Translations under genes and position numbers: made by a program | DNA from: Gordius sp. MW1 | Lineage: Eukaryota; Nematomorpha; Gordioida; Gordea; Gordiidae | Assembly: GCA_964036665.1 (NCBI GenBank) | Contig: OZ038533.1 | Coordinates: 10,810,413-10,874,412, forward strand | DNA length: 64,000 bases | Direction of reading: 5' to 3' | The notes under the pieces: model-generated | Seen by the model: only the letters and a program-made list of their open reading frames with translations | What the model was told of the DNA's origin: nothing | The model's database searches: none | In this document: piece after piece, positions 1 to 64,000 of the stretch | Position numbering within the stretch: the stretch's first letter is position 1 | Layout of the letters: every line of letters starts with the position of its first letter

Positions 1-12
1 CAACGTTTTATT

Positions 13-39
13 GTTGCGATTAGTTTGCTGTATCGCAAC
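13..39. other. Recurrent dyad GTTGCGAT-N11-ATCGCAAC (first example)
   Basis: An 8-bp perfect inverted repeat with an 11-bp A/T/G loop (TAGTTTGCTGT or TAGTTTGTTGT). It recurs at the same place in nearly all monomers, about 13 bp after each monomer start. It could be a protein-binding site or form a cruciform or RNA hairpin; the sequence alone does not decide. Damaged versions exist (ATCGAAAC at 36016 and 45119; GTTTCGAT near 28457; a deleted right arm near 709). The transposon sits in the loop of one copy. Confidence 0.7.
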
Positions 40-82
40 GTGAGTGCTTAATTTTTCAAAAATGCATTATGCGATCATGATT

Positions 83-90
83 TCAAAGTA
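83..90. other. Perfect 8-bp palindrome ATCATGAT, once per monomer
   Basis: It lies inside GCGATCATGATTTC and is kept in most monomers of both subtypes. Variants are found at 9290 (ATTATGAT), 49294 (GTCATGAT) and 50660 (GATTGATT). Significance unknown. Confidence 0.5.
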
Positions 91-204
91 ATAGTTTTCT
101 GATTCTGATAAATTTTTACTTTTTATCATCGAAACCACGTCTGAAAACGACAACTTTCATCGGATGCATACGGTTGAAAGAAAAATATGTGAAAATTTTG
201 AGGT

Positions 205-220
205 AAAAATATTTATTTTT
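205..220. other. AT-rich inverted repeat AAAAATA-TT-TATTTTT
   Basis: Seven-base arms with a two-base centre, present in most monomers and followed by a T run. In A-type 9214, 10588 and relatives one T is lost (AAATATTATTTTTTT). It is likely a curved or easily melted segment; this is inference from base composition. Confidence 0.5.
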
Positions 221-250
221 TACGATTCTATGTAAAAGAGCATGAAAAAA

Positions 251-260
251 TATATAAAAG
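251..260 (+). promoter_or_regulatory. TATA-box-like word TATATAAAAG (first example)
   Basis: It matches the strong eukaryotic TATA consensus (TATAWAAR) and occurs in nearly every monomer on the plus strand, preceded by GCATGAAAAAA. Variants lose it in part (ATACATTAAAG at 45338 and 46026; ATATACAAAAG at 44992 and 45682). I see no clear initiator about 30 bp downstream, so promoter activity is only a possibility. Confidence 0.3.
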
Positions 261-1369
261 TAAGCCAATTTGAGAATCCTATTATCCTCGATTGACTTCC
301 GAAAAGATGTTTTAAGCTGCGAGAACTATCATTTTGACAAAAGACAACGTTTGTTGCGATTAGTTTGTTGTTTCGCAACGTGAGTGCTTAATTTTTGAAA
401 ATGGCTCTATGCGATCATGATTTCAAAGTAATAGTTTTCAGATTCTTATAAATTTTTACTTGAGATCATAGAAACCACGTCTGAAAACGACAACTTTCAT
501 CGGATGAATACGGTTCAAAGAAAAATATGTGAAAAATTTTGAGGTAAAAATATTTATTTTTTTCATTTCTATGTGAAAGAGCATGAAAAAATATATAAAA
601 GTAAGCCAATTTGAGAATCCTATTATCCTCGATTGACTTCCGAAAAGAGGTTTTAAGCTGCGAGAACTATCATTTTGACAAAAGACAACGTTTTATTGTT
701 GCGATTAGTTTGCGCAACGTGAGTGCTTAATTTTTCAAAAATGCACTATGCGATCATGATTTCAAAGTAATAGTTTTCTGATTCTGATAAATTTTTACTT
801 GGGATCATAGAAACCACGTCTGAAAACGACAACTTTCATCGGATGAATAAGGTTCAAAGAAAAATATGTGAAAAATATTGAGGTAAAAATATTTATTTTT
901 TTCAATTCTATGTGAAAGAGCATGAAAAAATATATAAAAGTAAGCCAATTTGAGAATCCTATTATCCTCAATTGACTTCCGAAAAGAGGTTTTAAGCTGC
1001 GAGAACTATCATTTTGACAAAAGACAACGTTTTATTGTTGCGATTAGTTTGTTGTATCGCAACATGAGTGCTTGATTTTTGAAAAATGCACTATGCGATC
1101 ATGATTTCAAAGTAATAGTTTTCTGATTCTGATAAATTTTTACTTTTTATCATCGAAACCACGTCTGAAAACACGAACTTTCATCGGATGCATACGGTTG
1201 AAAGAAAAATATGTGAAAAATTTTGAGGTAATAATATTTATTTTTTTCGATTATAAGTGAAAGAGCGTAAAAAAATATATAAAAGTAAGTCAATTTGAGA
1301 ATCCTATTATCCTCGATTGACTTCCGAAAAGAGGTTTTAAGCTGCGAGAAATATCATTTTGACAAAAGA

Positions 1370-1714
1370 CAACGTTTTATTGTTGCGATTAGTTTGTTGT
1401 ATCGCAACGTGAGTGCTTGATTTTTGAAAATGGCTCTATGCGATCATGATTTCAAAGTAATAGTTTTCAGATTCTGATAAATTTTTACTTGGGATCATAG
1501 AAACCACGTCTGAAAACGACAACTTTCATCGGATGAATACGGTTCAAAGAAAAATATGAGAAAAATTTTGAGGTAAACATATTTATTTTTTTCAATTCTA
1601 TGTGAAAGAGCATGAAAAAATATATAAAAGTAAGCCAATTTGAGAATCCTATAATCCTCGATTGACTTCCGAAAAGAGGTTTTAAGCTGCGAGAACTATC
1701 ATTTTGACAAAAGA
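1370..1714. repeat. Example of subtype A monomer
   Basis: This monomer has the A diagnostic positions: TTGAAAATGGCTCTATG, TTTTCAGATTCTG, ACTTGGGATCATAG, GGATGAATACGGTTCAAAG and TTCAATTC. The variants CTTGATTTTTG, ATATGAGAAAA, GTAAACATATTT and CTATAATCC tag it as the second member of the 12-mer; the same tags recur at 5464. Subtype A differs from B at clustered blocks rather than evenly, so conversion or crossover within monomers can swap whole blocks and make mosaics. Confidence 0.9.
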
Positions 1715-2059
1715 CAACGTTTTATTGTTGCGATTAGTTTGTTGTATCGCAACGTGAGTGCTTAATTTTTCAAAAATGCACTATGCGATCATGATTTCAA
1801 AGTAATAGTTTTCTGATTCTGATAAATTTTTACTTTTTATCATCGAAACCACGTCTGAAAACGACAACTTTCATCGGATGCATACGGTTGAAAGAAAAAT
1901 ATGTGAAAAATTTTGAGGTAAAAATATTTATTTTTTTCATTTCTATGTGAAAGAGCATGAAAAAATATATAAAAGTAAGCCAATTTGAGAATCCTATTAT
2001 CCTCGATTGACTTCCGAAAAGAGGTTTTAAGCTGCGAGAACTATCATTTTGACAAAAGA

Positions 2060-2377
2060 CAACGTTTTATTGTTGCGATTAGTTTGTTGTATCGCAACGT
2101 GAGTGCTTAATTTTTCAAAAATGCACTATGCGATCATGATTTCAAAGTAATAGTTTTCTGATTCTGATAAATTTTTACTTGGGATCATACATCGGATGAA
2201 TAAGGTTCAAAGAAAAATATGTGAAAAATTTTGAGGTAAAAATATTTATTTTTTTTATTTCTATGTAAAAGAGCATGAAAAAATATATAAAAGTAAGCCA
2301 ATTTGAGAATCCTATTATCCTCGATTGACTTCCGAAAAGATGTTTTAAGCTGCGAGAACTATCATTTTGACAAAAGA
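2060..2377. repeat. 318-bp deleted monomer (12-mer copy 1)
   Basis: A type C monomer in which 27 bp are missing from the middle: GGGATCATA joins directly to CATCGGATGAAT near 2189, removing the GAAACCACGTCTGAAAACGA segment and the CAACTTT that follows it. The same junction is found at 6154-6471, so the deletion predates the 12-mer duplication and serves as a phase marker. Confidence 0.9.
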
Positions 2378-5118
2378 CAACGTTTGTTGCGATTAGTTTG
2401 TTGTTTCGCAACGTGAGTGCTTAATTTTTGAAAATGGCTCTATGCGATCATGATTTCAAAGTAATAGTTTTCTGATTCTGATAAATTTTTACTTTTTATC
2501 ATCGAAACCACGTCTGAAAACAACAACTTTCATCGGATGCATACGGTTGAAAGAAAAATATGTGAAAAATTTTGAGGTAATAATATTTATTTTTTTCGAT
2601 TATAAGTGAAAGAGCGTAAAAAAATATATAAAAGTAAGTCAATTTGAGAATCCTATTATCCTCGATTGACTTCCGAAAAGAGGTTTTAAGCTGCGAGAAC
2701 TATCATTTTGACAAAAGACAACGTTTTATTGTTGCGATTAGTTTGTTGTATCGCAACGTGAGTGCTTGATTTTTGAAAATGGCTCTATGCGATCATGATT
2801 TCAAAGTAATAGTTTTCAGATTCTGATAAATTTTTACTTGGGATCATAGAAACCACGTCTGAAAACGACAACATTCATCGGATGAATACGGTTCAAAGAA
2901 AAATATGAGAAAAATTTTGAGGTAAACATATTTATTTTTTTCAATTCTATGTGAAAGAGCATGAAAAAATATATAAAAGTAAGCCAATTTGAGAATCCTA
3001 TAATCCTCGATTGACTTCCGAAAAGAGGTTTTAAGCTGCGAGAACTATCATTTTGACAAAAGACAACGTTTTATTGTTGCGATTAGTTTGTTGTATCGCA
3101 ACGTGAGTGCTTAATTTTTCAAAAATGCACTATGCGATCATGATTTCAAAGTAATAGTTTTCTGATTCTGATAAATTTTTACTTTTTATCATCGAAACCA
3201 CGTCTGAAAACGACAACTTTCATCGGATGCATACGGTTGAAAGAAAAATATGTGAAAAATTTTGAGGTAAAAATATTTATTTTTTTCGATTCTATGTGAA
3301 AGAGCATGAAAAAATATATAAAAGTAAGCCAATTTGAGAATCCTATTATCCTCGATTGACTTCCGAAAAGAGGTTTTAAGCTGCGAGAATCATTTTGACA
3401 AAAGACAACGTTTTATTGTTGCGATTAGTTTGTTGTATCGCAACGTGAGTGCTTAATTTTTCAAAAATGCATTATGCGATCATGATTTCAAAGTAATAGT
3501 TTTCTGATTCTGATAAATTTTTACTTTTTATCATGGAAACCACATCTGACAACGACAACTTTCATGGGATGCTTACGGTTGAAAGAAAAATATATGAAAA
3601 ATTTTGAGGTAAAAATATTTATTTTTTTCGATTCTATGTGAAAGAGCGTAAAAAAATATATAAAAGTAAGCCAATTTGAGAATCCTATTATCCTCGATTG
3701 ACTTCCGAAAAGAGGTTTTAAGCGAGAACTATCATTTTGACAAAAGACAACGTTTTATTTTTGCGATTAGTTTGTTGTATCGCAACGTGAGTGCTTAATT
3801 TTTCAAAAATACACTATGCGATCATGATTTCAAAGTAATAGTTTTCTGATTCTGATAAATTTTTACTTTTTATCATCGAAACCACGTCTGAAAACGACAA
3901 CTTTCATCGGATGCATACGGTTGAAAGAAAAATATGTGAAAAATTTTGAGGTAAAAATATTTATTTTTTTCGATTCTATGTGAAAGAGCATAAAAAAATA
4001 TATAAAAGTAAGATATTTTGAGAATCCTATTATCCTCGATTGACTTCCGAAAAGAGGTTTTAAGCTGCGAGAACTATCATTTTGACAAAAGACAACGTTT
4101 TATTGTTGCGATTAGTTTGTTGTATCGCAACGTGAGTGCTTAACATTTGAAAATGCACTATGCGATCATGATTTCAAAGTAATAGGTTTCTGATTCTGAT
4201 AAATTTTTACTTTTTATCATCGAAACCACGTCTGAAAACGACAACTTTCATCGGATGCATACGGTTGAAAGAAAAATATGTGAAAAATTTTGAGGTAAAA
4301 ATATTTATTTTTTTCGATTCTATGTGAAAGAGCATGAAAAAATATATAAAAGTAAGCCAATTTGAGAATCCTATTATCCTTGATTGACTTCCGAAAAGAT
4401 GTTTTAAGCTGCGAGAACTATCATTTTGACAAAAGACAACGTTTGTTGCGATTAGTTTGTTGTTTCGCAACGTTACTGCTTAATTTTTGAAAATGGCTCT
4501 ATGCGATCATGATTTCAAAGTAATAGTTTTCAGATTCTAATAAATTTTTACTTGAGATCATAGAAACCACGTCTGAAAACGACAACTTTCATCGGATGAA
4601 TACGGTTCAAAGAAAAATATGTGAAAAATTTTGAGGTAAAAATATTTATTTTTTTTATTTCTATGTGAAAGAGCATGAAAAAATATATAAAAGTAAGCCA
4701 ATTTGAGAATCCTATTATCCTCGATTGACTTCCGAAAAGAGGTTTTAAGCTGCGAGAACTATCATTTTGACAAAAGACAACGTTTTATTGTTGCGATTAG
4801 TTTGTTGTATCGCAACGTGAGTGCTTAATTTTTCAAAAATGCACTATGCGATCATGATTTCAAAGTAGTTTTCTGATTCTGATAAATTTTTACTTGGGAT
4901 CATAGAAACCACGTCTGAAAACGACAACTTTCATCGGATGAATAAGGTTCAAAGAAAAATATGTGAAAAATATTGAGGTAAAAATATTTATTTTTTTCAA
5001 TTCTATGTGAAAGAGCATGAAAAAATATATAAAAGTAAGCCAATTTGAGAATCCTATTATCCTCAATTGACTTCCGAAAAGAGGTTTTAAGCTGCGAGAA
5101 CTATCATTTTGACAAAGA

Positions 5119-8100
5119 CAACGTTTTATTGTTGCGATTAGTTTGTTGTATCGCAACATGAGTGCTTGATTTTTGAAAAATGCACTATGCGATCATGATT
5201 TCAAAGTAATAGTTTTCTGATTCTGATAAATTTTTACTTTTTATCATCGAAACCACGTCTGAAAACAACAACTTTCATCGGATGCATACGGTTGAAAGAA
5301 AAATATGTGAAAAATTTTGAGGTAATAATATTTATTTTTTTCGATTATAAGTGAAAGAGCGTAAAAAAATATATAAAAGTAAGTCAATTTGAGAATCCTA
5401 TTATCCTCGATTGACTTCCGAAAAGAGGTTTTAAGCTGCGAGAAATATCATTTTGACAAAAGACAACGTTTTATTGTTGCGATTAGTTTGTTGTATCGCA
5501 ACGTGAGTGCTTGATTTTTGAAAATGGCTCTATGCGATCATGATTTCAAAGTAATAGTTTTCAGATTCTGATAAATTTTTACTTGGGATCATAGAAACCA
5601 CGTCTGAAAACGACAACTTTCATCGGATGAATACGGTTCAAAGAAAAATATGAGAAAAATTTTGAGGTAAACATATTTATTTTTTTCAATTCTATGTGAA
5701 AGAGCATGAAAAAATATATAAAAGTAAGCCAATTTGAGAATCCTATAATCCTCGATTGACTTCCGAAAAGAGGTTTTAAGCTGCGAGAACTATCATTTTG
5801 ACAAAAGACAACGTTTTATTGTTGCGATTAGTTTGTTGTATCGCAACGTGAGTGCTTAATTTTTCAAAAATGCACTATGCGATCATGATTTCAAAGTAAT
5901 AGTTTTCTGATTCTGATAAATTTTTACTTTTTATCATCGAAACCACGTCTGAAAACGACAACTTTCATCGGATGCATACGGTTGAAAGAAAAATATGTGA
6001 AAAATTTTGAGGTAAAAATATTTATTTTTTTCATTTCTATGTGAAAGAGCATGAAAAAATATATAAAAGTAAGCCAATTTGAGAATCCTATTATCCTCGA
6101 TTGACTTCCGAAAAGAGGTTTTAAGCTGCGAGAACTATCATTTTGACAAAAGACAACGTTTTATTGTTGCGATTAGTTTGTTGTATCGCAACGTGAGTGC
6201 TTAATTTTTCAAAAATGCACTATGCGATCATGATTTCAAAGTAATAGTTTTCTGATTCTGATAAATTTTTACTTGGGATCATACATCGGATGAATAAGGT
6301 TCAAAGAAAAATATGTGAAAAATTTTGAGGTAAAAATATTTATTTTTTTTATTTCTATGTAAAAGAACATGAAAAAATATATAAAAGTAAGCCAATTTGA
6401 GAATCCTATTATCCTCGATTGACTTCCGAAAAGATGTTTTAAGCTGCGAGAACTATCATTTTGACAAAAGACAACGTTTGTTGCGATTAGTTTGTTGTTT
6501 CGCAACGTGAGTGCTTAATTTTTGAAAATGGCTCTATGCGATCATGATTTCAAAGTAATAGTTTTCTGATTCTGATAAATTTTTACTTTTTATCATCGAA
6601 ACCACGTCTGAAAACAACAACTTTCATCGGATGCATACGGTTGAAAGAAAAATATGTGAAAAATTTTGAGGTAATAATATTTATTTTTTTCGATTATAAG
6701 TGAAAGAGCGTAAAAAAATATATAAAAGTAAGTCAATTTGAGAATCCTATTATCCTCGATTGACTTCCGAAAAGAGGTTTTAAGCTGCGAGAACTATCAT
6801 TTTGACAAAAGACAACGTTTTATTGTTGCGATTAGTTTGTTGTATCGCAACGTGAGTGCTTGATTTTTGAAAATGGCTCTATGCGATCATGATTTCAAAG
6901 TAATAGTTTTCAGATTCTGATAAATTTTTACTTGGGATCATAGAAACCACGTCTGAAAACGACAACTTTCATCGGATGAATACGGTTCAAAGAAAAATAT
7001 GAGAAAAATTTTGAGGTAAACATATTTATTTTTTTCAATTCTATGTGAAAGATCATGAAAAAATATATAAAAGTAAGCCAATTTGAGAATCCTATAATCC
7101 TCGATTGACTTCCGAAAAGAGGTTTTAAGCTGCGAGAACTATCATTTTGACAAAAGACAACGTTTTATTGTTGCGATTAGTTTGTTGTATCGCAACGTGA
7201 GTGCTTAATTTTTCAAAAATGCACTATGCGATCATGATTTCAAAGTAATAGTTTTCTGATTCTGATAAATTTTTACTTTTTATCATCGAAACCACGTCTG
7301 AAAACGACAACTTTCATCGGATGCATACGGTTGAAAGAAAAATATGTGAAAAATTTTGAGGTAAAAATATTTATTTTTTTTGATTCTATGTGAAAGAGCA
7401 TGAAAAAATATATAAAAGTAAGCCAATTTGAGAATCCTATTATCCTCGATTGACTTCCGAAAAGAGGTTTTAAGCTGCGAGAATCATTTTGACAAAAGAC
7501 AACGTTTTATTGTTGCGATTAGTTTGTTGTATCGCAACGTGAGTGCTTAATTTTTCAAAAATGCATTATGCGATCATGATTTCAAAGTAATAGTTTTCTG
7601 ATTCTGATAAATTTTTACTTTTTATCATGGAAACCACATCTGACAACGACAACTTTCATGGGATGCTTACGGTTGAAAGAAAAATATATGAAAAATTTTG
7701 AGGTAAAAATATTTATTTTTTTCGATTCTATGTGAAAGAGCGTAAAAAAATATATAAAAGTAAGCCAATTTGAGAATCCTATTATCCTCGATTGACTTCC
7801 GAAAAGAGGTTTTAAGCGAGAACTATCATTTTGACAAAAGACAACGTTTTATTTTTGCGATTAGTTTGTTGTATCGCAACGTGAGTGCTTAATTTTTCAA
7901 AAATACACTATGCGATCATGATTTCAAAGTAATAGTTTTCTGATTCTGATAAATTTTTACTTTTTATCATCGAAACCACGTCTGAAAACGACAACTTTCA
8001 TCGGATGCATACGGTTGAAAGAAAAATATGTGAAAAATTTTGAGGTAAAAATATTTATTTTTTTCGATTCTATGTGAAAGAGCATAAAAAAATATATAAA

Positions 8101-9213
8101 AGTAAGATATTTTGAGAATCCTATTATCCTCGATTGACTTCCGAAAAGAGGTTTTAAGCTGCGAGAACTATCATTTTGACAAAAGACAACGTTTTATTGT
8201 TGCGATTAGTTTGTTGTATCGCAACGTGAGTGCTTAACATTTGAAAATGCACTATGCGATCATGATTTCAAAGTAATAGGTTTCTGATTCTGATAAATTT
8301 TTACTTTTTATCATCGAAACCACGTCTGAAAACGACAACTTTCATCGGATGCATACGGTTGAAAGAAAAATATGTGAAAAATTTTGAGGTAAAAATATTT
8401 ATTTTTTTCGATTCTATGTGAAAGAGCATGAAAAAATATATAAAAGTAAGCCAATTTGAGAATCCTATTATCCTTGATTGACTTCCGAAAAGATGTTTTA
8501 AGCTGCGAGAACTATCATTTTGACAAAAGACAACGTTTGTTGCGATTAGTTTGTTGTTTCGCAACGTGAGTGCTTAATTTTTGAAAATGGCTCTATGCGA
8601 TCATGATTTCAAAGTAATAGTTTTCAGATTCTAATAAATTTTTACTTGAGATCATAGAAACCACGTCTGAAAACGACAACTTTCATCGGATGAATACGGT
8701 TCAAAGAAAAATATGTGAAAAATTTTGAGGTAAAAATATTTATTTTTTTTATTTCTATGTGAAAGAGCATGAAAAAATATATAAAAGTAAGCCAATTTGA
8801 GAATCCTATTATCCTCGATTGACTTCCGAAAAGAGGTTTTAAGCTGCGAGAACTATCATTTTGACAAAAGACAACGTTTTATTGTTGCGATTAGTTTGTT
8901 GTATCGCAACGTGAGTGCTTAATTTTTCAAAAATGCACTATGCGATCATGATTTCAAAGTAGTTTTCTGATTCTGATAAATTTTTACTTGGGATCATAGA
9001 AACCACGTCTGAAAACGACAACTTTCATCGGATGAATAAGGTTCAAAGAAAAATATGTGAAAAATATTGAGGTAAAAATATTTATTTTTTTCAATTCTAT
9101 GTGAAAGAGCATGAAAAAATATATAAAAGTAAGCCAATTTGAGAATCCTATTATCCTCAATTGACTTCCGAAAAGAGGTTTTAAGCTGCGAGAACTATCA
9201 TTTTGACAAAAGA
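5119..9213. repeat. 12-monomer higher-order repeat, copy 2
   Basis: Monomer starts: 5119, 5464, 5809, 6154, 6472, 6813, 7158, 7500, 7842, 8187, 8531, 8872. It carries the same private tags in the same order as copy 1. Its second half (from 7158) is also the first part of the 17-monomer unit, so the 12-mer duplication appears older than the 17-mer duplication. The last monomer keeps the 3-bp deletion AAAGTAGTTTTC seen in copy 1 near 4866. Confidence 0.93.
6154..6471. repeat. 318-bp deleted monomer (12-mer copy 2)
   Basis: It has the same 27-bp internal deletion, with the junction GATCATACATCGG near 6279-6291, as the monomer at 2060. It then differs slightly (AAAAGAACATG where copy 1 reads AAAAGAGCATG). 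Confidence 0.9.
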
Positions 9214-12200
9214 CAACGTTTTATTGTTGCGATTAGTTTGTTGTATCGCAACGTGAGTGCTTAATTTTTGAAAATGGCTCTATGCGATTATGATTTCAAA
9301 GTAATAGTTTTCAGATTTTGATAAATTTTTACTTGGGATCATAGAAACCACGTCTGAAAACGACAACTTTCATCGGATGAATACGGTTCAAAGAAAAATA
9401 TATGAAAAATTTTGAGGTAAAAATATTATTTTTTTCAATTCTATGTGAAAGAGCATGAAAAAATATATAATAGTAAGCCAATTTGAGAATCCTATTATCC
9501 TCGATTGACTTCCGAAAAGAGGTTTTAAGCTGCGAGAACTATCATTTTGACAAAAGACAACGTTTTATTGTTGCGATTAGTTTGCTGTATCGCAACGTGA
9601 GTGCTTAATTTTTCAAAAATGCATTATGCGATCATGATTTCAAAGTAATAGTTTTCTGATTCTGATAAATTTTTACTTTTTATCATCGAAACCACGTCTG
9701 AAAACGACAACTTTCATCGGATGCATACGGTTGAAAGAAAAATATGTGAAAATTTTGAGGTAAAAATATTTATTTTTTTCGATTCTATGTAAAAGAGCAT
9801 GAAAAAATATATAAAAGTAAGCCAATTTGAGAATCCTATTATCCTCGATTGACTTCCGAAAAGATGTTTTAAGCTGCGAGAACTATCATTTTGACAAAAG
9901 ACAACGTTTGTTGCGATTAGTTTGTTGTTTCGCAACGTGAGTGCTTAATTTTTGAAAATGGCTCTATGCGATCATGATTTCAAAGTAATAGTTTTCAGAT
10001 TCTTATAAATTTTTACTTGAGATCATAGAAACCACGTCTGAAAACGACAACTTTCATCGGATGAATACGGTTCAAAGAAAAATATGTGAAAAATTTTGAG
10101 GTAAAAATATTTATTTTTTTCATTTCTATGTGAAAGAGCATGAAAAAATATATAAAAGTAAGCCAATTTGAGAATCCTATTATCCTCGATTGACTTCCGA
10201 AAAGAGGTTTTAAGCTGCGAGAACTATCATTTTGACAAAAGACAACGTTTTATTGTTGCGATTAGTTTGTTGTATCGCAACGTGAGTGCTTAATTTTTCA
10301 AAAATGCACTATGCGATCATGATTTCAAAGTAATAGTTTTCTGATTCTGATAAATTTTTACTTGGGATCATAGAAACCACGTCTGAAAACGACAACTTTC
10401 ATCGGATGAATAAGGTTCAAAGAAAAATATGTGAAAAATATTGAGGTAAAAATATTTATTTTTTTCAATTCTATGTGAAAGAGCATGAAAAAATATATAA
10501 AAGTAAGCCAATTTGAGAATCCTATTATCCTCAATTGACTTCCGAAAAGAGGTTTTAAGCTGCGAGAACTATCATTTTGACAAAAGACAACGTTTTATTG
10601 TTGCGATTAGTTTGTTGTATCGCAACGTGAGTGCTTGATTTTTGAAAATGGCTCTATGCGATTATGATTTCAAAGTAATAGTTTTCAGATTTTGATAAAT
10701 TTTTACTTGGGATCATAGAAACCACGTTTGAAAACGACAACTTTCATCGGATGAATACGGTTCAAAGAAAAATATATGAAAAATTTTGAGGTAAAAATAT
10801 TATTTTTTTCAATTCTATGTGAAAGAGCATGAAAAAATATATAAAAGTATGCCAATTTGAGAATCCTATTATCCTCGATTGACTTCCGAAAAGAGGTTTT
10901 AAGCTGCGAGATTTATCATTTTGACAAAAGACAACGTTTTATTGTTGCGATTAGTTTGCTGTATCGCAACGTGAGTGCTTAATTTTTCAAAAATGCATTA
11001 TGCGATCATGATTTCAAAGTAATAGTTTTCTGATTCTGATAAATTTTTACTTTTTATCACCGAAACCACGTCTGAAAACGACAACTTTCATCGGATGCAT
11101 ACGGTTGAAAGAAAAATATGTGAAAATTTTGAGGTAAAAATATTTATTTTTTTCGATTCTATGTGAAAGAGCATGAAAAAATATATAAAAGTAAGCCAAT
11201 TTGAGAATCCTATTATCCTCGATTGACTTCCGAAAAGAGGTTTTAAGCTGCGAGAACTATCATTTTGACAAAACACAACGTTTTATTGTTGCGATTAGTT
11301 TGTTGTATCGCAACGTGATGCTTATTTTTAAAAATGGCTCTATGCGATCATGATTTCAAAGTAATAGTTTTCAGATTCTGATAAATTTTTACTTGGGATC
11401 ATAGAAACCACGTCTGAAAACGACAACTTTCATCGGATGAATACGGTTCAAAGAAAAACATGTGAAAAATTTTGAATTGGTAAAAATATTTATTTTTTTC
11501 AATTCTATGTGAAAGAGCATGAAAAAATATATAAAAGTAAGCCAATTTGAGAATCCTATTATCCTCGATTGACTTCCGAAAAGAGGTTTTAAGCTGCGAG
11601 AACTATCATTTTGACAAAAGACAACGTTTTATTGTTGCGATTAGTTTGTTGTATCGCAACGTGAGTGCTTAATTTTTCAAAAATGCACTATGCAATGATG
11701 ATTTCAAAGTAATAGTTTTCTGATTCTGATAAATTTTTACTTTTTATCATCGAAACCACGTCTGAAAACGACAACTTTCATCGGATGCATACGGTTGAAA
11801 GAAAAATATGTGAAAAATTTTGAGGTAAAAATATTTATTTTTTTCAATTCTATGTGAAAGAGCATGAAAAAATATATAAAAGTAAGCCAATTTGAGAATC
11901 CTATTATCCTCGATTGACTTCCGAAAAGAGGTTTTAAGCTGCGAGAACTATCATTTTGACAAAAGACAACGTTTTATTGTTGCGATTAGTTTGCTGTATC
12001 GCAACGTGAGTGCTTAATTTTTCAAAAATGCATTATGCGATCATGATTTCAAAGTAATAGTTTTCTGATTCTGATAAATATTTACTTTTTATCATCGAAA
12101 CCACGTCTGAAAACGACAACTTTCATCGGATGCATACGGTTGAAAGAAAAATATGTGAAAATTTTGAGGTAAAAATATTTATTTTTTTCGATTCTATGTG

Positions 12201-13001
12201 AAAGAGCATGAAAAAATATATAAAAGTAAGCCAATTTGAGAATCCTATTATCCTCGATTGACTTCCGAAAAGAGGTTTTAAGCTGCGAGAACTATCATTT
12301 TGACAAAACACAACGTTTTATTGTTGCGATTAGTTTGTTGTATCGCAACGTGATGCTTATTTTTAAAAATGGCTCTATGCGATCATGATTTCAAAGTAAT
12401 AGTTTTCAGATTCTGATAAATTTTTACTTGGGATCATAGAAACCACGTCTGAAAACGACAACTTTCATCGGATGAATACGGTTCAAAGAAAAACATGTGA
12501 AAAATTTTGAATTGGTAAAAATATTTATTTTTTTCAATTCTATGTGAAAGAGCATGAAAAAATATATAAAAGTAAGCCAATTTGAGAATCCTATTATCCT
12601 CGATTGACTTCCGAAAAGAGGTTTTAAGCTGCGAGAACTATCATTTTGACAAAAGACAACGTTTTATTGTTGCGATTAGTTTGTTGTATCGCAACGTGAG
12701 TGCTTAATTTTTCAAAAATGCACCATGCAATCATGATTTCAAAGTAATAGTTTTCTGATTCTGATAAATTTTTACTTTTTATCATCGAAACCACGTCTGA
12801 AAACGACAACTTTCATCGGATGCATACGGTTGAAAGAAAAATATGTGAAAAATTTTGAGGTAAAAATATTTATTTTTTTCGATTCTATGTGAAAGAGCAT
12901 GAAAAAATATATAAAAGTAAGCCAATTTGAGAATCCTATTATCCTCGATTGACTTCCGAAAAGAGGTTTTAAGCTGCGAGAACTATCATTTTGACAAAAG
13001 A
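7158..13001. repeat. 17-monomer higher-order repeat, copy a (5,844 bp)
   Basis: Monomer starts: 7158, 7500, 7842, 8187, 8531, 8872, 9214, 9558, 9902, 10243, 10588, 10932, 11276, 11622, 11967, 12311, 12657. Every tag recurs exactly 5,844 bp downstream, including AAATATTATTTTTTT with ATAATAGTAAG (9214), AGTATGCC and GAGATTTATC (10588), TCACCGAAACC (10932), GTGATGCTTATTTTTAAAAA with TTTGAATTGG (11276, 12311) and the CACCATGCAATC variant (12657). By eye the two copies look almost identical. The unit boundary lies inside the monomer at 13002, whose head matches 18846 and whose tail matches 7158. Confidence 0.93.
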
Positions 13002-44489: not shown

Positions 44490-44607
44490 TGACAATATAG
44501 AAAATAACTTATTATTAAAATCAAATCATCATTTATTACCTTCTGATTTTTATATAAATGTTTAAATAAATAATAGCAATTAATAATACCAAACAAAATT
44601 GTTTTTT

Positions 44608-44751
44608 GTAACTTTAGGTGTAACTAGTTCCATCAGGTAAGTAACTGGAACTGTAATCAGTTACATTTGAAAATATGTAACTGTAACTGTAATTAGTTAC
44701 ATTTTTTGTGAAAGTAATTGTAACTTAACTAGTTACTGTGGTTAAGTAACT
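44608..44751. repeat. Right subterminal GTAAC/GTTAC repeats
   Basis: Ten GTAAC or GTTAC words, including GTAACTGTAACTG and TAATTAGTTAC groups also seen at the left end. Between the hAT relic and this cluster (44493-44607) I see only AT-rich DNA. Confidence 0.85.
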
Positions 44752-44763
44752 TTAACAGCTCTG
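44752..44763. repeat. Right terminal inverted repeat
   Basis: TTAACAGCTCTG, the exact reverse complement of the first 12 bases of the element. Confidence 0.95.
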
Positions 44764-44771
44764 GTTTGTTG
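44764..44771. other. Right target-site duplication
   Basis: GTTTGTTG, identical to 42521-42528. The satellite continues directly with TATCGCAACGTG, completing the split monomer (42499-42528 plus 44772-45086, together 345 bp). Confidence 0.97.
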
Positions 44772-53500: not shown

Positions 53501-55709
53501 ATTTTGAGGTAAAAATATTTATTTTTTTCGATTCTATGTGAAAGAGCATGAAAAAATATATAAAAGTAAGCCAATTTGAGAATCCTATTATCCTCGATTG
53601 ACTTCCGAAAAGAGGTTTTAAGCTGCGAGAACTATCATTTTGACAAAAGACAACGTTTTATTGTTGCGATTAGTTTGTTGTATCGCAACGTGATTGTTAA
53701 TTTTTCAAAAATGCACTATGCGGTCATGATTTTAAAGTAATAGTTTTCTGATTCTGATAAATTTTTACTTTTTATCATCGAAACCACGTCTGAAAACGAC
53801 AACTTTCATCGGATGCATACGGTTGAAAGAAAAATATGTGAAAAATTTTGAGGTAAAAATATTTATTTTTTTCGATTCTATGTGAAAGAGCATGAAAAAA
53901 TATATAAAAGTAAGCCAATTTGAGAATCCTATTATCCTCGATTGACTTCCGAAAAGAGGTTTTAAGCTGCGAGAACTATCATTTTGACAAAAGACAACGT
54001 TTTATTGTTGCGATTAGTTTGTTGTATCGCAACGTGATTGTTAATTTTTCAAAAATGCACTATGCGGTCATGATTTTAAAGTAATAGTTTTCTGATTCTG
54101 ATAAATTTTTACTTTTTATCATCGAAACCACGTCTGAAAACGACAACTTTCATCGGATGCATACGGTTGAAAGAAAAATATGTGAAAAATTTTGAGGTAA
54201 AAATATTTATTTTTTTCGATTCTATGTGAAAGAGCATGAAAAAATATATAAAAGTAAGCCAATTTGAGAATCCTATTATCCTCGATTGACTTCCGAAAAG
54301 AGGTTTTAAGCTGCGAGAACTATCATTTTGACAAAAGACAACGTTTTATTGTTGCGATTAGTTTGTTGTATCGCAACGTGAGTGCTTAATTTTTCAAAAA
54401 TGCACTATGCGATCATGATTTCAAAGTAATAGTTTTCTGATTGTGATAAATTTTTACTTTTTATCATAGAAACCACGTCTGAAAACGACAACTTTCATCG
54501 GATGCATACGGTTGAAAGAAAAATATGTGAAAAATTTTGAGGTAAAATTATTTATTTTTTTCGATTCTATGTGAAAGAGCATGAAAAAATATATAAAAGT
54601 AAGCCAATTTGAGAATCCTATTATCCTCGATTGACTTCCGAAAAGAGTTTTTAAGCTGCGAGAACTATCATTTTGACAAAAGACAACGTTTTATTGTTCC
54701 GAATAGTTTGTTGTATCGCAACGTGAGTGCTTAATTTTTCAAAAATGCACTATGCGGTCATGATTTCAAAGTAATAGTTTTCTGATTCTGATAAATTTTT
54801 ACTTTTTATTATCGAAACCACGTCTGAAAACGACATCTTTCATCGGATGCATACGGTTGAAAGAAAAATATGTGAAAAATTTTGAGGTAAAAATATTTAT
54901 TTTATTCGATTTTATGTGAAAGAGCATGAAAAAATATATAAAAGTAAGCCAATTTGAGAATCCTATTATCCTCGATTGACTTCCGAAAAGAGGTTTTAAG
55001 CTGCGAGAACTATCATTTTGACAAAAGACAACGTTTTATTGTTGCGATTAGTTTGTTGTATCGCAACGTGAGTGCTTAATTTTTCAAAAATGCACTATGC
55101 GATCATGAATTCAAAGTAATCGTTTTCTGATTCTGATAAATTTTTACTTTTTATCATCGAAACCACGTCTGAAAACGACAACTTTCATCGGATGCATACG
55201 GTTGAAAGAAAAATATGTGAAAAATTTTGAGGTAAAAATATTTATTTTTTCGATTCTATGTGAAAGAGCATGAAAAAATATATAAAAGTAAGCCAATTTG
55301 AGAATCCTATTCGATTGACTTCCGAAAAGAGGTTTTAAGCTGCGAGAACTATCATTTTGACAAAAGACAACGTTTTATTGGCGATTAGTTTGTTGTATCG
55401 CAACGTGAGTCCTTAATTTTCAAAAATGCACTATGCGGTCATGATTTCAAAGTAATAGTTTTCTGATTCTGATTAATTTTCACTTTTTATCATCGAAACC
55501 ACGTCTGAAAACGACAACTTTTTTCGGATGCAGACGGTTGAAAGAAAAATATGTGAAAAATTTTGAGGTAAAAATATTTATTTTTTTCGATTTTATGTGA
55601 AAGAGCATGAAAAAATATATAAAAGTAAGCCAATTTGAGAATCCTATTATCCTCGATTGACTTCCGAAAAGAGGTTTTAAGCTGCGAGAACTATAATTTT
55701 GACAAAAGA
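50588..55709. repeat. 15-monomer higher-order repeat, copy 1 (5,122 bp)
   Basis: Starts and tags: 50588 (GCGATTGATTTC), 50931 (GCTTCTATG), 51276 (TATCCAACG, GCCTCTATG), 51620 (CTATTCGATTG), 51959 (AACTTGAG), 52304 (GTGAGTGATCATG), 52623 (GTGCTGGA), 52961 (AAAAAAATTTATT), 53306 (GCGGTCATG), 53651 and 53995 (GTGATTGTTAA), 54339 (GATTGTGAT), 54684 (GTTCCGAATAG), 55029 (ATGAATTCAAAG), 55368 (TTGGCGATTAG). Nearly all are subtype B. Confidence 0.9.
52304..52622. repeat. 319-bp deleted monomer with long T tract
   Basis: About 27 bp between GTGAGTG and ATCATG are missing (the CTTAATTTTTCAAAAATGCA region). The usual AAAAATATTTATTTTT is replaced by AAAAGA followed by a T run of about 14. The A-type block ACTTGGGATCAT sits beside the B-type GCATACGGTTG, so it is also a mosaic. 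The same form recurs at 57077-57395. Confidence 0.88.
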
Positions 55710-58700
55710 CAACGTTTTATTGTTGCGATTAGTTTGTTGTATCGCAACGTGAGTGCTTAATTTTTCAAAAATGCACTATGCGATTGATTTCAAAGTAATA
55801 GTTTTCTGATTCTGATAAATTTTTACTTGGGATCATAGAAACCACGTCTGAAAACGACAACTTTCATCGGATGCATACAGTTGAAAGAAAAATATGTGAA
55901 AAATTTTGAGGTAAAAATATTTATTTTTTTCGATTCTATGTGAAAGAGCATGAAAAAATATATAAAAGTAAGCCAATTTGAGAATCCTATTCGATTGACT
56001 TCCGAAAAGAGGTTTTAAGCTGCGAGAACTATCATTTTGACAAAAGACAACGTTTTATTGTTGCGATTAGTTTGTTGTATCGCAACGTGAGTGCTTAATT
56101 TTTCAAAAATGCACTATGCGGTCATGATTTCAAAGTAATAGTTTTCTGATTCTGATAAATTTTTACTTTTTATCATCGAAACCACGTCTGAAAACGACAA
56201 CTTTCATCGGATGCATACGGTTGAAAGAAAAATATGTGAAAAATTTTGAGGTAAAAATATTTATTTTTTTCGATTCTATGTGAAAGAGCATGAAAAAATA
56301 TATAAAAGTAAGCCAATTTGAGAATCCTATTATCCTCGATTGACTTCCGAAAAGAGGTTTTAAGCTGCGAGAACTATCATTTTGACAAAAGACAACGTTT
56401 TATTGTTGCGATTAGTTTGTTGTATCGCAACGTGAGTGCTTAATTTTTCAAAAATGCACTATGCGATCACGATTTCAAAGTAATAGTTTTCTGATTCTGA
56501 TAAATTTTTACTTTTTATCATCGAAACCACGTCTGAAAACGACAACTTTCATCGGATGCATACGGTTGAAAGAAAAATATGTGAAAAATTTTGAGGTAAA
56601 AATATTTATTTTTTCGATTCTATGTGAAAGAGCATGAAAAAATATATAAAAGTAAGCCAATTTGAGAATCCTATTCGATTGACTTCCGAAAAGAGGTTTT
56701 AAGCTGCGAGAACTATCATTTTGACAAAAGACAACGTTTTATTGTTGCGATTAGTTTGTTGTATCGCAACGTGAGTGCTTAATTTTTCAAAAATGCACTA
56801 TGCGATCATGATTTCAAAGTAATAGTTTTCTGATTCTGATAAATTTTTACTTTTTATCATCGAAACCACGTCTGAAAACGACAACTTTCATCGGATGCAT
56901 ACGGTTGAAAGAAAAATATGTGAAAAATTTTGAGGTAAAAATATTTATTTTTTTCGATTTTATGTGAAAGAGCATGAAAAAATATATAAAAGTAAGCCAA
57001 CTTGAGAATCCTATTATCCTCGATTGACTTCCGAAAAGAGGTTTTAAGCTGTGAGAACTATCATTTTGACAAAAGACAACGTTTTATTGTTGCGATTAGT
57101 TTGTTGTATCGCAACGTGAGTGATCATGATTTCAAAGTAATAGTTTTCAGATTCTGATAAATTTTTACTTGGGATCATAGAAACCACGTCTGAAAACGAC
57201 AACTTTCATCCGATGCATACGGTTGAAAGAAAAATATGTGAAAAATTTTGAGGTAAAAGATTTTTTTTTTTTTCGATTCTATGTGAAAGAGCGTAAAAAA
57301 ATATATAAAAGTAAGCCAATTTGAGAATCCTATTATCCTCGATTGACTTCCGAAAAGAGGTTTTAAGCTGTGAGAACTATCATTTTAACAAAAGACAACG
57401 TTTTATTGTTGCGATTAGTTTGTTGTATCGCAACGTGAGTGCTGGATTTTTCAAAAATGCACTATGCGGTCATGATTTCAAAGTAATAGTTTTCTGATTC
57501 TGATAAATTTTTACTTTTTATCATCGAAACCACGTCTGAAAACGACAACTTTCATCGGATGCATACGTTGAAAGAAAAATATGTGAAAAATTTTGAGGTA
57601 AAAATATTTATTTTTTCGATTCTATGTGAAAGAGCATGAAAAAATATATAAAAGTAAGCCAATTTGAGAATCCTATTCGATTGACTTCCGAAAAGAGGTT
57701 TTAAGCTGCGAGAACTATCATTTTGACAAAAGACAACGTTTTATTGTTGCGATTAGTTTGTTGTATCGCAACGTGAGTGCTTAATTTTTCAAAAATGCAC
57801 TATGCGATCATGATTTCAAAGTAATAGTTTTCTGATTCTGATAAATTTTTACTTTTTATCATCGAAACCACGTCTGAAAACGACAACTTTCATCGGATGC
57901 ATACGGTTGAAAGAAAAATATGTGAAAAATTTTGAGGTAAAAAAATTTATTTTTTTCGATTCTATGTGAAAGAGCATGAAAAAATATATAAAAGTAAGCC
58001 AATTTGAGAATCCTATTATCCTCGATTGACTTCCGAAAAGAGGTTTTAAGCTGCGAGAACTATCATTTTGACAAAAGACAACGTTTTATTGTTGCGATTA
58101 GTTTGTTGTATCGCAACGTGAGTGCTTAATTTTTCAAAAATGCACTATGCGGTCATGATTTCAAAGTAATAGTTTTCTGATTCTGATAAATTTTTACTTT
58201 TTATCATCGAAACCACGTCTGTAAACGACAACTTTCATCGGATGCATACGGTTGAAAGAAAAATATGTGAAAAATTTTGAGGTAAAAATATTTATTTTTT
58301 TCGATTCTATGTGAAAGAGCATGAAAAAATATATAAAAGTAAGCCAATTTGAGAATCCTATTATCCTCGATTGACTTCCGAAAAGAGGTTTTAAGCTGCG
58401 AGAACTATCATTTTGACAAAAGACAACGTTTTATTGTCGATTAGTTTGTTGTATCGCAACGTGAGTGCTTAATTTTAGAAAATGCATTATGCGATCATGA
58501 TTTCAAAGTAATAGTTTTCTGATTCTGATAAATTTTTACTTTTTATCATCGAAACCACGTCTGAAAACGACAACTTTCATCGGATGCATACGGTTGAAAG
58601 AAAAATATGTGAAAAATTTTGAGGTAAAAAAATTTATTTTTTTCGATTCTATGTGAAAGAGCATGAAAAAATATATAAAAGTAAGCCAATTTGAGAATCC

Positions 58701-60825
58701 TATTATCCTCGATTGACTTCCGAAAAGAGGTTTTAAGCTGCGAGAACTATCATTTTGACAAAAGACAACGTTTTATTGTTGCGATTAGTTTGTTGTATCG
58801 CAACGTGAGTGCTTAATTTTTCAAAAATGCACTATGCGGTCATGATTTCAAAGTAATAGTTTTCTGATTCTGATAAATTTTTACTTTTTATCATCGAAAC
58901 CACGTCTGAAAACGACAACTTTCATCGGATGCATACGGTTGAAAGAAAAATATGTGAAAAATTTTGAGGTAAAAATATTTATTTTTTTCGATTCTATGTG
59001 AAAGAGCATGAAAAAATATATAAAAGTAAGCCAATTTGAGAATCCTATTATCCTCGATTGACTTCCGAAAAGAGGTTTTAAGCTGCGAGAACTATCATTT
59101 TGACAAAAGACAACGTTTTATTGTTGCGATTAGTTTGTTGTATCGCAACGTGATTGTTAATTTTTCAAAAATGCACTATGCGGTCATGATTTTAAAGTAA
59201 TAGTTTTCTGATTCTGATAAATTTTTACTTTTTATCATCGAAACCACGTCTGAAAACGACAACTTTCATCGGATGCATACGGTTGAAAGAAAAATATGTG
59301 AAAAATTTTGAGGTAAAAATATTTATTTTTTTCGATTCTATGTGAAAGAGCATGAAAAAATATATAAAAGTAAGCCAATTTGAGAATCCTATTATCCTCG
59401 ATTGACTTCCGAAAAGAGGTTTTAAGCTGCGAGAACTATCATTTTGACAAAAGACAACGTTTTATTGTTGCGATTAGTTTGTTGTATCGCAACGTGAGTG
59501 CTTAATTTTTCAAAAATGCACTATGCGATCATGATTTCAAAGTAATAGTTTTCTGATTGTGATAAATTTTTACTTTTTATCATAGAAACCACGTCTGAAA
59601 ACGACAACTTTCATCGGATGCATACGGTTGAAAGAAAAATATGTGAAAAATTTTGAGGTAAAATTATTTATTTTTTTCGATTCTATGTGAAAGAGCATGA
59701 AAAAATATATAAAAGTAAGCCAATTTGAGAATCCTATTATCCTCGATTGACTTCCGAAAAGAGTTTTTAAGCTGCGAGAACTATCATTTTGACAAAAGAC
59801 AACGTTTTATTGTTCCGAATAGTTTGTTGTATCGCAACGTGAGTGCTTAATTTTTCAAAAATGCACTATGCGGTCATGATTTCAAAGTAATAGTTTTCTG
59901 ATTCTGATAAATTTTTACTTTTTATTATCGAAACCACGTCTGAAAACGACATCTTTCATCGGATGCATACGGTTGAAAGAAAAATATGTGAAAAATTTTG
60001 AGGTAAAAATATTTATTTTATTCGATTTTATGTGAAAGAGCATGAAAAAATATATAAAAGTAAGCCAATTTGAGAATCCTATTATCCTCGATTGACTTCC
60101 GAAAAGAGGTTTTAAGCTGCGAGAACTATCATTTTGACAAAAGACAACGTTTTATTGTTGCGATTAGTTTGTTGTATCGCAACGTGAGTGCTTAATTTTT
60201 CAAAAATGCACTATGCGATCATGAATTCAAAGTAATCGTTTTCTGATTCTGATAAATTTTTACTTTTTATCATCGAAACCACGTCTGAAAACGACAACTT
60301 TCATCGGATGCATACGGTTGAAAGAAAAATATGTGAAAAATTTTGAGGTAAAAATATTTATTTTTTCGATTCTATGTGAAAGAGCATGAAAAAATATATA
60401 AAAGTAAGCCAATTTGAGAATCCTATTCGATTGACTTCCGAAAAGAGGTTTTAAGCTGCGAGAACTATCATTTTGACAAAAGACAACGTTTTATTGGCGA
60501 TTAGTTTGTTGTATCGCAACGTGAGTCCTTAATTTTCAAAAATGCACTATGCGGTCATGATTTCAAAGTAATAGTTTTCTGATTCTGATTAATTTTCACT
60601 TTTTATCATCGAAACCACGTCTGAAAACGACAACTTTTTTCGGATGCAGACGGTTGAAAGAAAAATATGTGAAAAATTTTGAGGTAAAAATATTTATTTT
60701 TTTCGATTTTATGTGAAAGAGCATGAAAAAATATATAAAAGTAAGCCAATTTGAGAATCCTATTATCCTCGATTGACTTCCGAAAAGAGGTTTTAAGCTG
60801 CGAGAACTATAATTTTGACAAAAGA
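55710..60825. repeat. 15-monomer higher-order repeat, copy 2 (5,116 bp, rearranged)
   Basis: Starts: 55710, 56048, 56393, 56732, 57077, 57396, 57734, 58079, 58424, 58766, 59111, 59455, 59800, 60145, 60484. It has 15 monomers like copy 1 but not the same 15. It lacks the GCTTCTATG and GCCTCTATG monomers (one GCGGTCATG monomer stands in their place), has a second AAAAAAATTT plus GCGGTCATG pair (58424, 58766), and has one GTGATTGTTAA monomer instead of two. Confidence 0.9.
57077..57395. repeat. 319-bp deleted monomer with long T tract (copy 2)
   Basis: Same internal deletion and T run as the monomer at 52304, at an offset of 4,773 bp rather than the full 5,12x-bp unit, because copy 2 has one monomer fewer upstream of it. 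Confidence 0.88.
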
Positions 60826-62541
60826 CAACGTTTTATTGTTGCGATTAGTTTGTTGTATCGCAACGTGAGTGCTTAATTTTTCAAAAATGCACTATGCGAT
60901 TGATTTCAAAGTAATAGTTTTCTGATTCTGATAAATTTTTACTTGGGATCATAGAAACCACGTCTGAAAACGACAACTTTCATCGGATGCATACAGTTGA
61001 AAGAAAAATATGTGAAAAATTTTGAGGTAAAAATATTTATTTTTTTCGATTCTATGTGAAAGAGCATGAAAAAATATATAAAAGTAAGCCAATTTGAGAA
61101 TCCTATTATCCTCGATTGACTTCCGAAAAGAGGTTTTAAGCTGCGAGAACTATCATTTTGACAAAAGACAACGTTTTATTGTTGCGATTAGTTTGTTGTA
61201 TCGCAACGTGAGTGCTTAATTTTTGAAAATGCTTCTATGCGATCATGATTTCAAAGTAATAGTTTTCTGATTCTGATAAATTTTTACTTTTTATCATCGA
61301 AATCACGTCTAAAAACGACAACTTTTATCGGATGCATACGGTTGAAAGAAAAATATGTGAAAAATTTTGAGGTAAAAATATTTATTTTTTTCGATTCTAT
61401 GTGAAAGAGCATGAAAAAATATATAAAAGTAAGCCAATTTGAGAATCCTATTATCCTCGATTGACTTCCGAAAAGAGGTTTTAAGCTGCGAGAACTATCA
61501 TTTTGACAAAAGACAACGTTTTATTGTTGCGATTAGTTTGTTGTATCCAACGTGAGTGCTCAATTTTTGAAAATGCCTCTATGCGATCATGATTTCAAAG
61601 TAATAGTTTTCTGATTCTGATAAATTTTTACTTTTTATCATCGAAACCACGTCTGAAAACGACAACTTTCATCGGATGCATACGGTTGAAAGAAAAATAT
61701 GTGAAAAATTTTGAGGTAAAAATATTTATTTTTTTCGATTCTATGTGAAAGAGCATGAAAAAATATATAAAAGTAAGCCAATTTGAGAATCCTATTATCC
61801 TCGATTGACTTCCGAAAAGAGGTTTTAAGCTGCGAGAACTATCATTTTGACAAAAGACAACGTTTTATTGTTGCGATTAGTTTGTTGTATCGCAACGTGA
61901 GTGCTTAATTTTTCAAAAATGCACTATGCGATCATGATTTCAAAGTAATAGTTTTCTGATTCTGATAAATTTTTACTTTTTATCATCGAAACCACGTCTG
62001 AAAACGACAACTTTCATCGGATGCATACGGTTGAAAGAAAAATATGTGAAAAATTTTGAGGTAAAAATATTTATTTTTTCGATTCTATGTGAAAGAGCAT
62101 GAAAAAATATATAAAAGTAAGCCAATTTGAGAATCCTATTCGATTGACTTCCGAAAAGAGGTTTTAAGCTGCGAGAACTATCATTTTGACAAAAGACAAC
62201 GTTTTATTGTTGCGATTAGTTTGTTGTATCGCAACGTGAGTGCTTAATTTTTCAAAAATGCACTATGCGATCATGATTTCAAAGTAATAGTTTTCTGATT
62301 CTGATAAATTTTTACTTTTTATCATCGAAACCACGTCTGAAAACGACAACTTTCATCGGATGCATACGGTTGAAAGAAAAATATGTGAAAAATTTTGAGG
62401 TAAAAATATTTATTTTTTTCGATTTTATGTGAAAGAGCATGAAAAAATATATAAAAGTAAGCCAACTTGAGAATCCTATTATCCTCGATTGACTTCCGAA
62501 AAGAGGTTTTAAGCTGTGAGAACTATCATTTTGACAAAAGA
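60826..62541. repeat. 15-monomer higher-order repeat, copy 3 (first five monomers)
   Basis: Starts: 60826, 61169, 61514, 61858, 62197. They carry GCGATTGATTTC, GCTTCTATG, TATCCAACG with GCCTCTATG, CTATTCGATTG, and AACTTGAG in order, so they follow copy 1 (50588-52303) rather than the adjacent copy 2. Small differences include GAAATCACG near 61300 and GTGCTCAATTT near 61556. Confidence 0.9.
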
Positions 62542-64000
62542 CAACGTTTTATTGTTGCGATTAGTTTATTGTATCGCAACGTGAGTGCTTAATTTTTCAA
62601 AAATGCACTATGCGGTCATGATTTCAAAGTAATAGTTTTCTGATTCTGATAAATTTTTACTTTTTATCATCGAAACCACGTCTGAAAACGACAACTTTCA
62701 TCGGATGCATACGGTTGAAAGAAAAATATGTGAAAAATTTTTAGGTAAAAATATTTATTTTTTTCGATTTTATGTGAAAGAGCATGAAAAAATATATAAA
62801 AGTAAGCCAATTTGAGAATCCTATTATCCTCGATTGACTTCCGAAAAGAGGTTTTAAGCTGCGAGAACTATCATTTTGACAAAAGACAACGTTTTATTGT
62901 TGCTAGTTTGTTGTATCGCAACGTGAGTGCTTAATTTTTGAAAATGGCTCTATGCGATCATGATTTCAAAGTAATAGTTTTCTGATTCTGATAAATTTTT
63001 ACTTTTTATCATCGAAACCACGTCTGAAAACGACAACTTTCATCGGATGCATACGGTTGAAAGAAAAATATGTGAAAAATTTTGAGGTAAAAATATTTAT
63101 TTTTTTCGATTCTATGTGAAAGCATGAAAAAATATATATAAGTAAGCCAATTTGAGAATCCTATTATCCTCGATTGACTTCCGAAAAGAGGTTTTAAGCT
63201 GCGAGAACTATCATTTTGACAAAAGACAACGTTTTATTGTTGCGATTAGTTTGTTGTATCGCAACGTGAGTGCTTAATTTTAGAAAATGCACTATGCGAT
63301 CATGATTTCAAAGTAATAGTTTTCTGATTCTGATAAACTTTTACTTTTTATCATCGAAACCACGTCTGAAAACAACAACTTTCATCGGATGCATACGGTT
63401 GAAAGAAAAATATGTGAAAAATTTTGAGGTAAAAATATTTATTTTTTTCGATTCTATGTGAAAGAGCATGAAAAAATATATAAAAGTAAGCCAATTTGAG
63501 AATCCTATCTCGATTGACTTCCGAAAAGACGTTTTAAGCTGCGAGAACTGTCATTTGACAAAAGACAACGTTTTATTGTTGCGATTAGTTTGTTGTATCG
63601 CAACGTGAGTGCTTAATTTTTAAAAATGGCTCTATGCGATCATGATTTCAAAGTAATAGTTTTCTGATTCTGATAAATTTTTACTTTTTATCACCGAAAC
63701 CAGGTCTGAAAACGACAACTTTCATCGGATGCATACGGTTGAAAGAAAAATATGTGAAAAATTTTGAGGTAAAAATATTTATTTTTTTCGATTCTATGTG
63801 AAAGAGCATGAAAAAATATATAAAAGTAAGCCTATTTGAGAATCCTATTATCCTCGATTGACTTCCGAAAAGACGTTTTAAGCTGCGAGAACTATCATTT
63901 TGACAAAAGACAACGTTTTATAGTTGCGATTAGTTTGTTGTATCGCAACGTGAGTGCTTAATTTTTCAAAAATGCACTATGCGATTGATTTCAAAGTAAT
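62542..64000. repeat. Irregular monomers at the right edge
   Basis: Starts: 62542 (GTTTATTGTATCG, ATTTTTAGGTA), 62887 (TTGTTGCTAGTTTG, dyad left arm damaged by a 5-bp loss; GGCTCTATG head on a B body), 63227 (GATAAACTTTTAC, CCTATCTCG), 63566 (GAACTGTCATTTGAC lies just before it; GGCTCTATG, TCACCGAAACCAGG) and 63911, a partial monomer with GCGATTGATTTC. The 15-mer order is not kept here. Confidence 0.85.

Follow-up and report, generated by a model that had tools for sequence, protein, structure and literature searches.

In mutation-accumulation lines of Arabidopsis, in-frame insertions and deletions of 1–31 monomers have been reported, with the insertions drawn from adjacent sequence, and simulations of the CEN180 satellite built on such steps also generate higher-order repeat (HOR) structure (PMC12321929). 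Human centromere 8 has a 'high-entropy' layer of alpha-satellite in which HORs of 4, 7, 8 and 11 monomers are mixed (PMC8997354). A mixture of this kind is described here for a stretch of 64,000 nucleotides from the nematomorph Gordius sp. MW1, hereafter the window (bases 10,810,413–10,874,412 of contig C7, which is 21.05 Mb long, in a genome of 211.8 Mb on 12 contigs). The window consists almost entirely of a satellite with a 345-bp monomer, and we find that its periods are recent, local, in-register tandem duplications, not HOR arrays.

Like CEN180, the window has changed by blocks of whole monomers, in register and in many sizes, with insertions from adjacent sources and signs of short conversion; unlike CEN180, whose HORs mostly comprise 2–3 monomers, it has a monomer of 345 bp and units of up to 17–25 monomers (PMC12321929). 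The mixed HOR sizes recall human centromere 8, but in the human layer a single 11-mer is the source of the smaller HORs, whereas here the large units are present in two or three copies; monomer divergence is about 5% here, compared with a human within-HOR identity of 50–70% (PMC8997354). PMsat of Peromyscus has a monomer of 344–346 bp in several species, a likeness of monomer size between a rodent satellite and one from a 212-Mb genome (PMC6733818). PMsat was among the results of a literature search for a 345-bp satellite, which is no proof that the present satellite is unpublished. Tribolium madens likewise has a multi-megabase satellite of (peri)centromere type with polarity changes, which form macro-dyad symmetries there; its monomer is about 110 bp, and here only polarity switches, and no paired inverted arms, were seen (PMC13081366). 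In the unequal-exchange model of Smith (1976), as described in PMC8997354, out-of-register duplications and deletions give rise to HORs; break-induced replication fits the window equally well. The result agrees with existing models and is a case of ordinary repeat turnover, not a new chromosome structure.

The array and its duplications

Tandem Repeats Finder reads positions 1–64000 as a single 345-bp array of 186.3 copies. The AT-rich monomers run head to tail on the plus strand and account for 61,765 of the 64,000 bp, the remainder being a single insert of 2,235 bp. When the window and the 200 kb adjoining it upstream (264 kb together, with no N bases) are cut at the monomer start, 703 of 704 pieces measure 318–349 bp; the sole 689-bp piece is a missed boundary and was excluded from the monomer matrix. 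The window alone gives 182 pieces, partial ones counted, and mean pairwise divergence among its 180 full monomers is 4.7%. Within the 64 kb, none of the 24-mers is repeated on the reverse strand. Periods were located by a monomer-by-monomer matrix combined with base-level diagonals, and are placed as follows.

1..42528, plus strand: left part of the 345-bp satellite array, monomers m1–m125 (m125 partial)
1026..9214, plus strand: 12-mer tandem duplication, period 4,094 bp, 2 copies (m4–m15, m16–m27)
7159..18846, plus strand: 17-mer tandem duplication, period 5,844 bp, 2 copies (m22–m38, m39–m55), overlapping the 12-mer
18847..22962, plus strand: 6-mer tandem duplication, period 2,058 bp, 2 copies
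22279..35642, plus strand: 11-mer, period 3,770 bp, 3 copies (m66–76, m77–87, m88–104, the last with an internal duplication)
29819..33920, plus strand: internal 6-mer duplication, offset 2,051 bp (m88–93, m94–99), within the third 11-mer copy
35300..41127, plus strand: 9-mer duplication, period 3,085 bp, 2 copies
44764..64000, plus strand: right part of the 345-bp satellite array
44764..46809, plus strand: AB dimers of about 689 bp, about 3 dimers (m126–m131)
49908..63911, plus strand: 15-mer of about 5.12 kb, 3 mosaic copies

Base-level copy numbers, which have a floor just under two since rows shorter than 0.97 of a period were dropped, are 2.00 for the 12-mer (8 mismatches in 4,097 bases; divergence 0.27%), 2.04 for the 17-mer (2 in 6,100; 0.03% over its 17 monomers) and 2.06 for the 6-mer (1 in 2,182; 0.05%). 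The 11-mer makes an unbroken base-level run of 2.61 copies and is counted as three in the monomer matrix, while the 6-mer duplication inside it shows no mismatch over 2,293 bases. Between the two copies of the 9-mer, eight of the nine monomers match. In the 12-, 17-, 6-, 11- and 9-mers the copies are thus 0.03–0.27% apart (for the 9-mer, over those eight monomers), against 4.7% among monomers, a likeness of the kind expected of HOR units. The AB dimer and the 15-mer are looser in this respect. A and B differ by 9.6–10.6% and like monomers by 0.9–4.4%; consecutive 15-mer copies average 2.1–2.2% divergence over the 11 monomers compared, and copies 1 and 3 are 0.21% apart over seven monomers. A division of the monomers into two clean classes, A and B, was tried and rejected, as clustering gave a weak excess of same-type monomers at even spacing.

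The long array of one repeated unit that marks HORs of the alpha-satellite type is absent, each unit having 2–3 copies. What is found instead are adjacent, in-register duplications of variable size, the footprint of unequal exchange or break-induced replication.

A first-pass annotation of this sequence had named seven periods, all of which are present at the offsets it gave, in the matrix and on the diagonals alike. It had each period used two to four times: the units are indeed repeated, two or three times, and four is not reached. Its picture of successive local amplifications of different size also stands, while 'six higher-order periods' is an overstatement for units of two to three copies that, where the answer is clear, are private to the window. 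The same annotation held that the events could be read in order, and for two pairs they can. The 12-mer duplication is older than the 17-mer, because the last six monomers of the second 12-mer copy were carried along in the 17-mer duplication, from whose duplicate they are 0.10% apart. The 11-mer is older than its internal 6-mer, because the latter is located inside the third 11-mer copy. Several other events, with 0–2 differences, remain unordered. The 2,235-bp insert was absent from that account.

Privacy was assessed by counting diagnostic words as exact matches in the 212-Mb genome, a count that words with a mismatch escape, for the 11-, 12-, 17-, 9- and 15-mers. All exact genome copies lie in the window for the 11-mer (4 of 4), the 12-mer (2 of 2), the 17-mer (2 of 2) and the 9-mer (2 of 2). 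For these four units the answer is clear: they belong to the window alone.

The pattern beyond the window

Five insertions aside, the adjoining upstream 200 kb carries this satellite throughout, in an unchanged orientation. Its 15 rows of tandem type range in period from 345 to 2,744 bp and in copy number from 2.0 to 3.4; the monomer matrix reveals a further repeat, of 20 monomers in 2.1 copies. Across the 264 kb, nine base-level tandem runs have a period of at least 2 kb, with 2.00–2.61 copies. Distinct periods of at least six monomers (large periods below) number 2, 0 and 3 in three upstream stretches of 182 monomers, the third of which extends 7.5 kb into the window, and 5 in the window (179 monomers).

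Among the chromosomes besides C7, C1 and C3 were sampled at a depth of 10 kb. On C1, a 5,842-bp (17-monomer) repeat extends over the entire overlap that 10 kb permits, and an 8,594-bp (25-mer) repeat follows from the distances between copies of an exact 31-mer. A duplication pattern of the same kind, in other sizes, is thus present in the upstream 200 kb and on C1, with weaker support from C3.

Proposed block turnover and its alternatives

Our interpretation, to which we give a probability of roughly 0.8, is that homology drives a turnover of the block, in which runs of 1 to about 25 monomers are duplicated in tandem, or deleted, in register. Its observed basis comprises the duplications, their copy numbers, the lack of out-of-register monomers, the private tested units and the chromosome-wide setting. 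Out-of-register sister exchange or break-induced replication would duplicate or delete blocks of monomers, short gene conversion and point mutation would act afterwards, and each 'higher-order period' would be a single duplication, or occasionally a pair, that later events have yet to overwrite. The repair pathway, the gene conversion and the deletions are parts of this scheme that we infer. Of the known processes, unequal sister exchange and break-induced replication fit (PMC8997354; PMC12321929); the junctions expected of the two are identical. Linkage between variable sites within the monomer (22 sites) falls from a mean r2 of 0.65 below 15 bp to 0.02 at 120–134 bp, fading over about 75–120 bp, and such a decay would be expected of short conversion tracts.

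The scheme was compared with a simulation of random block duplication and deletion with mutation, thinned to the observed mean divergence. When each event adds one copy and blocks average 10–14 monomers, the simulation comes near to the observed periods, copy numbers and neighbour divergence: 182 monomers carry 5.9–6.7 distinct periods (observed 5, 2, 5 and 7), of which 2.8–3.0 are large (observed 2, 0, 3 and 5), and the median largest copy number is 2.1 (observed 2.7, none, 2.3 and 2.6). The ratio of adjacent to overall divergence is 0.96–0.99 in these runs and, as observed, 0.98 over the 264 kb and 1.03 in the window; in both, neighbouring monomers resemble each other no more than random pairs do. 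On this simulation the window would lie at the rich end of neutral turnover without being exceptional, because five or more large periods appear in 6–17% of simulated 182-monomer stretches with one extra copy per event (10–21% in an earlier, smaller simulation).

Several points weigh against this interpretation. Three units (the 11-mer, the AB dimer and the 15-mer) are present in triplicate, and the mosaic 15-mer does not go back to a single clean event. Its diagnostic word has seven exact copies, three in the window, one elsewhere on C7 and three on C4, although what distinguishes this word is a short deletion, which could arise repeatedly. One of the three upstream blocks is without any large period, and in the 10 kb sampled on C3 repetition is partial: matches extend for 1.4 kb (offset of 15 monomers) and for 1.1 kb (offset of 4 monomers), and a full two-copy unit of such size is absent. 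At a spacing of 2–20, monomers differ about 9% less than monomer pairs overall (0.0414 vs 0.0454), a likeness that lies outside the features matched to the simulation; the simulation itself is simple, its mean divergence was fitted to the observed one, and stretches taken from the same run depend on one another. The main uncertainty concerns the youngest units: events with 0–2 mismatches could be longer arrays that the assembly has collapsed to two copies.

The units with three copies are what would be expected if multi-copy amplification, for example rolling-circle copying with circle reinsertion, had produced several neighbouring arrays of true HORs. If each simulated event adds about three copies and blocks average 20 monomers, the simulation gives 3.4 large periods and a median largest copy number of 3.2, and 43% of its stretches have at most three copies, so that these settings are not clearly excluded. 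At means of 3–14 monomers, however, it yields 4.8–10.5 large periods per stretch, against 2, 0, 3 and 5, and a median largest copy number of 3.6–4.8, against an observed maximum of 2.7. Most large units, moreover, have two adjacent copies, and the tested words of four units are confined to one place; we regard multi-copy amplification as improbable. We give still less credence to an assembly artefact, in which longer, near-identical arrays were collapsed or duplications are false. The 17-mer, 11-mer and two 6-mer repeats are only 0–2 bases apart, a range in which assemblers can fail, but collapse is unlikely as a general cause because older, well-marked duplications with 8–11 mismatches (4,094; 2,067; 2,056; 2,744 bp) also have about two copies. 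The 264 kb are, besides, free of N, and the 5,842-bp repeat on C1 is of the same style.

The window surpasses the other blocks in large periods (five, compared with 2, 0 and 3) and contains the largest of the young events; such wealth could also reflect a local recombination hotspot or kinetochore core that drives the patchwork specifically here. We consider this unlikely, in view of the 6–17% (or 10–21%) of simulated neutral stretches that are just as rich and of junction phases that do not cluster (p 0.46, with low power). These phases come from 16 of 32 base-level rows (the rest being repeats of one event, too wide, or without a monomer phase), and the wide intervals are what keeps the power low. 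An exchange hot spot at one place within the monomer was rejected on the same figures. Another idea, namely that the window marks an actively rearranging centromere core of C7, in which blocks of 2–6 kb are duplicated by break-induced replication, seems to us unlikely as well, if slightly less so; if it were true, the birth of new HORs could be watched before any one of them takes over. Turnover by in-register duplication and deletion of blocks is the reading we retain.

The satellite in the genome

An exact 31-mer of the monomer has 43,385 copies in the genome (17,135 on the plus and 26,250 on the minus strand), of which 529 fall in the 264 kb, where the satellite covers about 244.7 kb. Scaled from this density, the satellite is estimated at roughly 20 Mb in total, about 9.5% of the genome. 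All 79 matches of a rarer variant word lie on C1–C8, in one region per chromosome (C1 8, C2 18, C3 23, C4 4, C5 2, C6 5, C7 14, C8 5), and within the region they occur on both strands on C2, C3, C4, C5 and C7. Among the matches listed for the 31-mer is a lone copy at C1:6503806. The satellite is therefore abundant with one main block per chromosome, as a major (peri)centromere-type satellite is, and from its sequence distribution we take the monomer to be such a satellite, with polarity switches, on eight chromosomes. On C7 the satellite is on the plus strand at 8.34 Mb, on the minus strand at 9.25–9.66 Mb and on the plus strand again at 10.14–10.87 Mb; by analogy with Tribolium madens (PMC13081366), these switches, and those on C2, C3, C4 and C5, are possible macro-dyads. 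The block that includes the window would be of megabase scale and probably lies at or beside the functional centromere.

The monomer consensus contains a small dyad, found by eye, GTTGCGAT...ATCGCAAC, at monomer positions 12–19 and 31–38 with an 11-base loop. Compared with the CENP-B box, NTTCGNNNNANNCGGGN, the consensus gives no match better than one with 3 mismatches.

The hAT-like insert

The insert that interrupts the array has the outline of a non-autonomous hAT-like element.

42529..44763, no strand assigned: hAT-like non-autonomous element, 2,235 bp, ends CAGAGCTGTTAA...TTAACAGCTCTG
42521..42528, no strand assigned: left copy of the 8-bp target-site duplication GTTTGTTG
44764..44771, no strand assigned: right copy of the 8-bp target-site duplication GTTTGTTG

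The 8-bp target-site duplication typical of hAT elements, GTTTGTTG, flanks the insert on both sides, and 8-bp duplications were also seen by eye at element copies on C4 and C6. hAT transposons have CAG-type inverted ends, and the ends CAGAGCTGTTAA and TTAACAGCTCTG fit this type. No transposase gene was recognised in the insert, whose longest stop-free frame is 82 amino acids in 2,235 bp; no domain search was run. A 21-bp tandem repeat, AAATGCTCAGTAAAAATTCAA, in 4.6 copies (window positions 43104–43202, Tandem Repeats Finder), lies within the element.

Relatives of the element occur on C1–C8, with at least 65 matches (40 scored of 1,323 candidates). Near-identical copies stand at C7:10753751 and C7:10758059, 4.3 kb apart and at the same target site; they differ by 6 mismatches and 1 gap, their right flanks by 1 of 345 bp and their left flanks by 21 of 345 bp. 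The two are probably one insertion that was duplicated together with the satellite, a reading made less certain by the differences in the left flanks. A preference of the element for the monomer dyad was considered and rejected: the window copy and these two C7 copies are at the dyad, and the C4 and C6 copies are elsewhere. Three other insertions in the C7 satellite lie at 10662276–10663437, 10676725–10681662 and 10765716–10772173 (1.2, 4.9 and 6.5 kb).

Other observations on the assembly

The start of C1 carries TTAGGG, and no run of six TTAGG or TCAGG was found. The COX1 gene on C12 reads with TGA as Trp, and presumably with ATA as Met and AGR as Ser, as judged by eye; in our reading, it would use an invertebrate-type mitochondrial code. 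Mitochondrial COX1 copies are also present on nuclear contigs (C8:2829490–2830827, C5:673008, C4:356383 and others), and the C8 copy is full length, scoring 408.2 bits against 410.5 for the C12 copy.

Significance

The array, from a genome with TTAGGG telomeres, offers a view of satellite change that is free of N bases, in which duplications of many sizes are present mostly in two copies and, where tested, are private to a single place. Because its copies carry few differences, it is a good array in which to measure rates of such change in pedigrees or clones.

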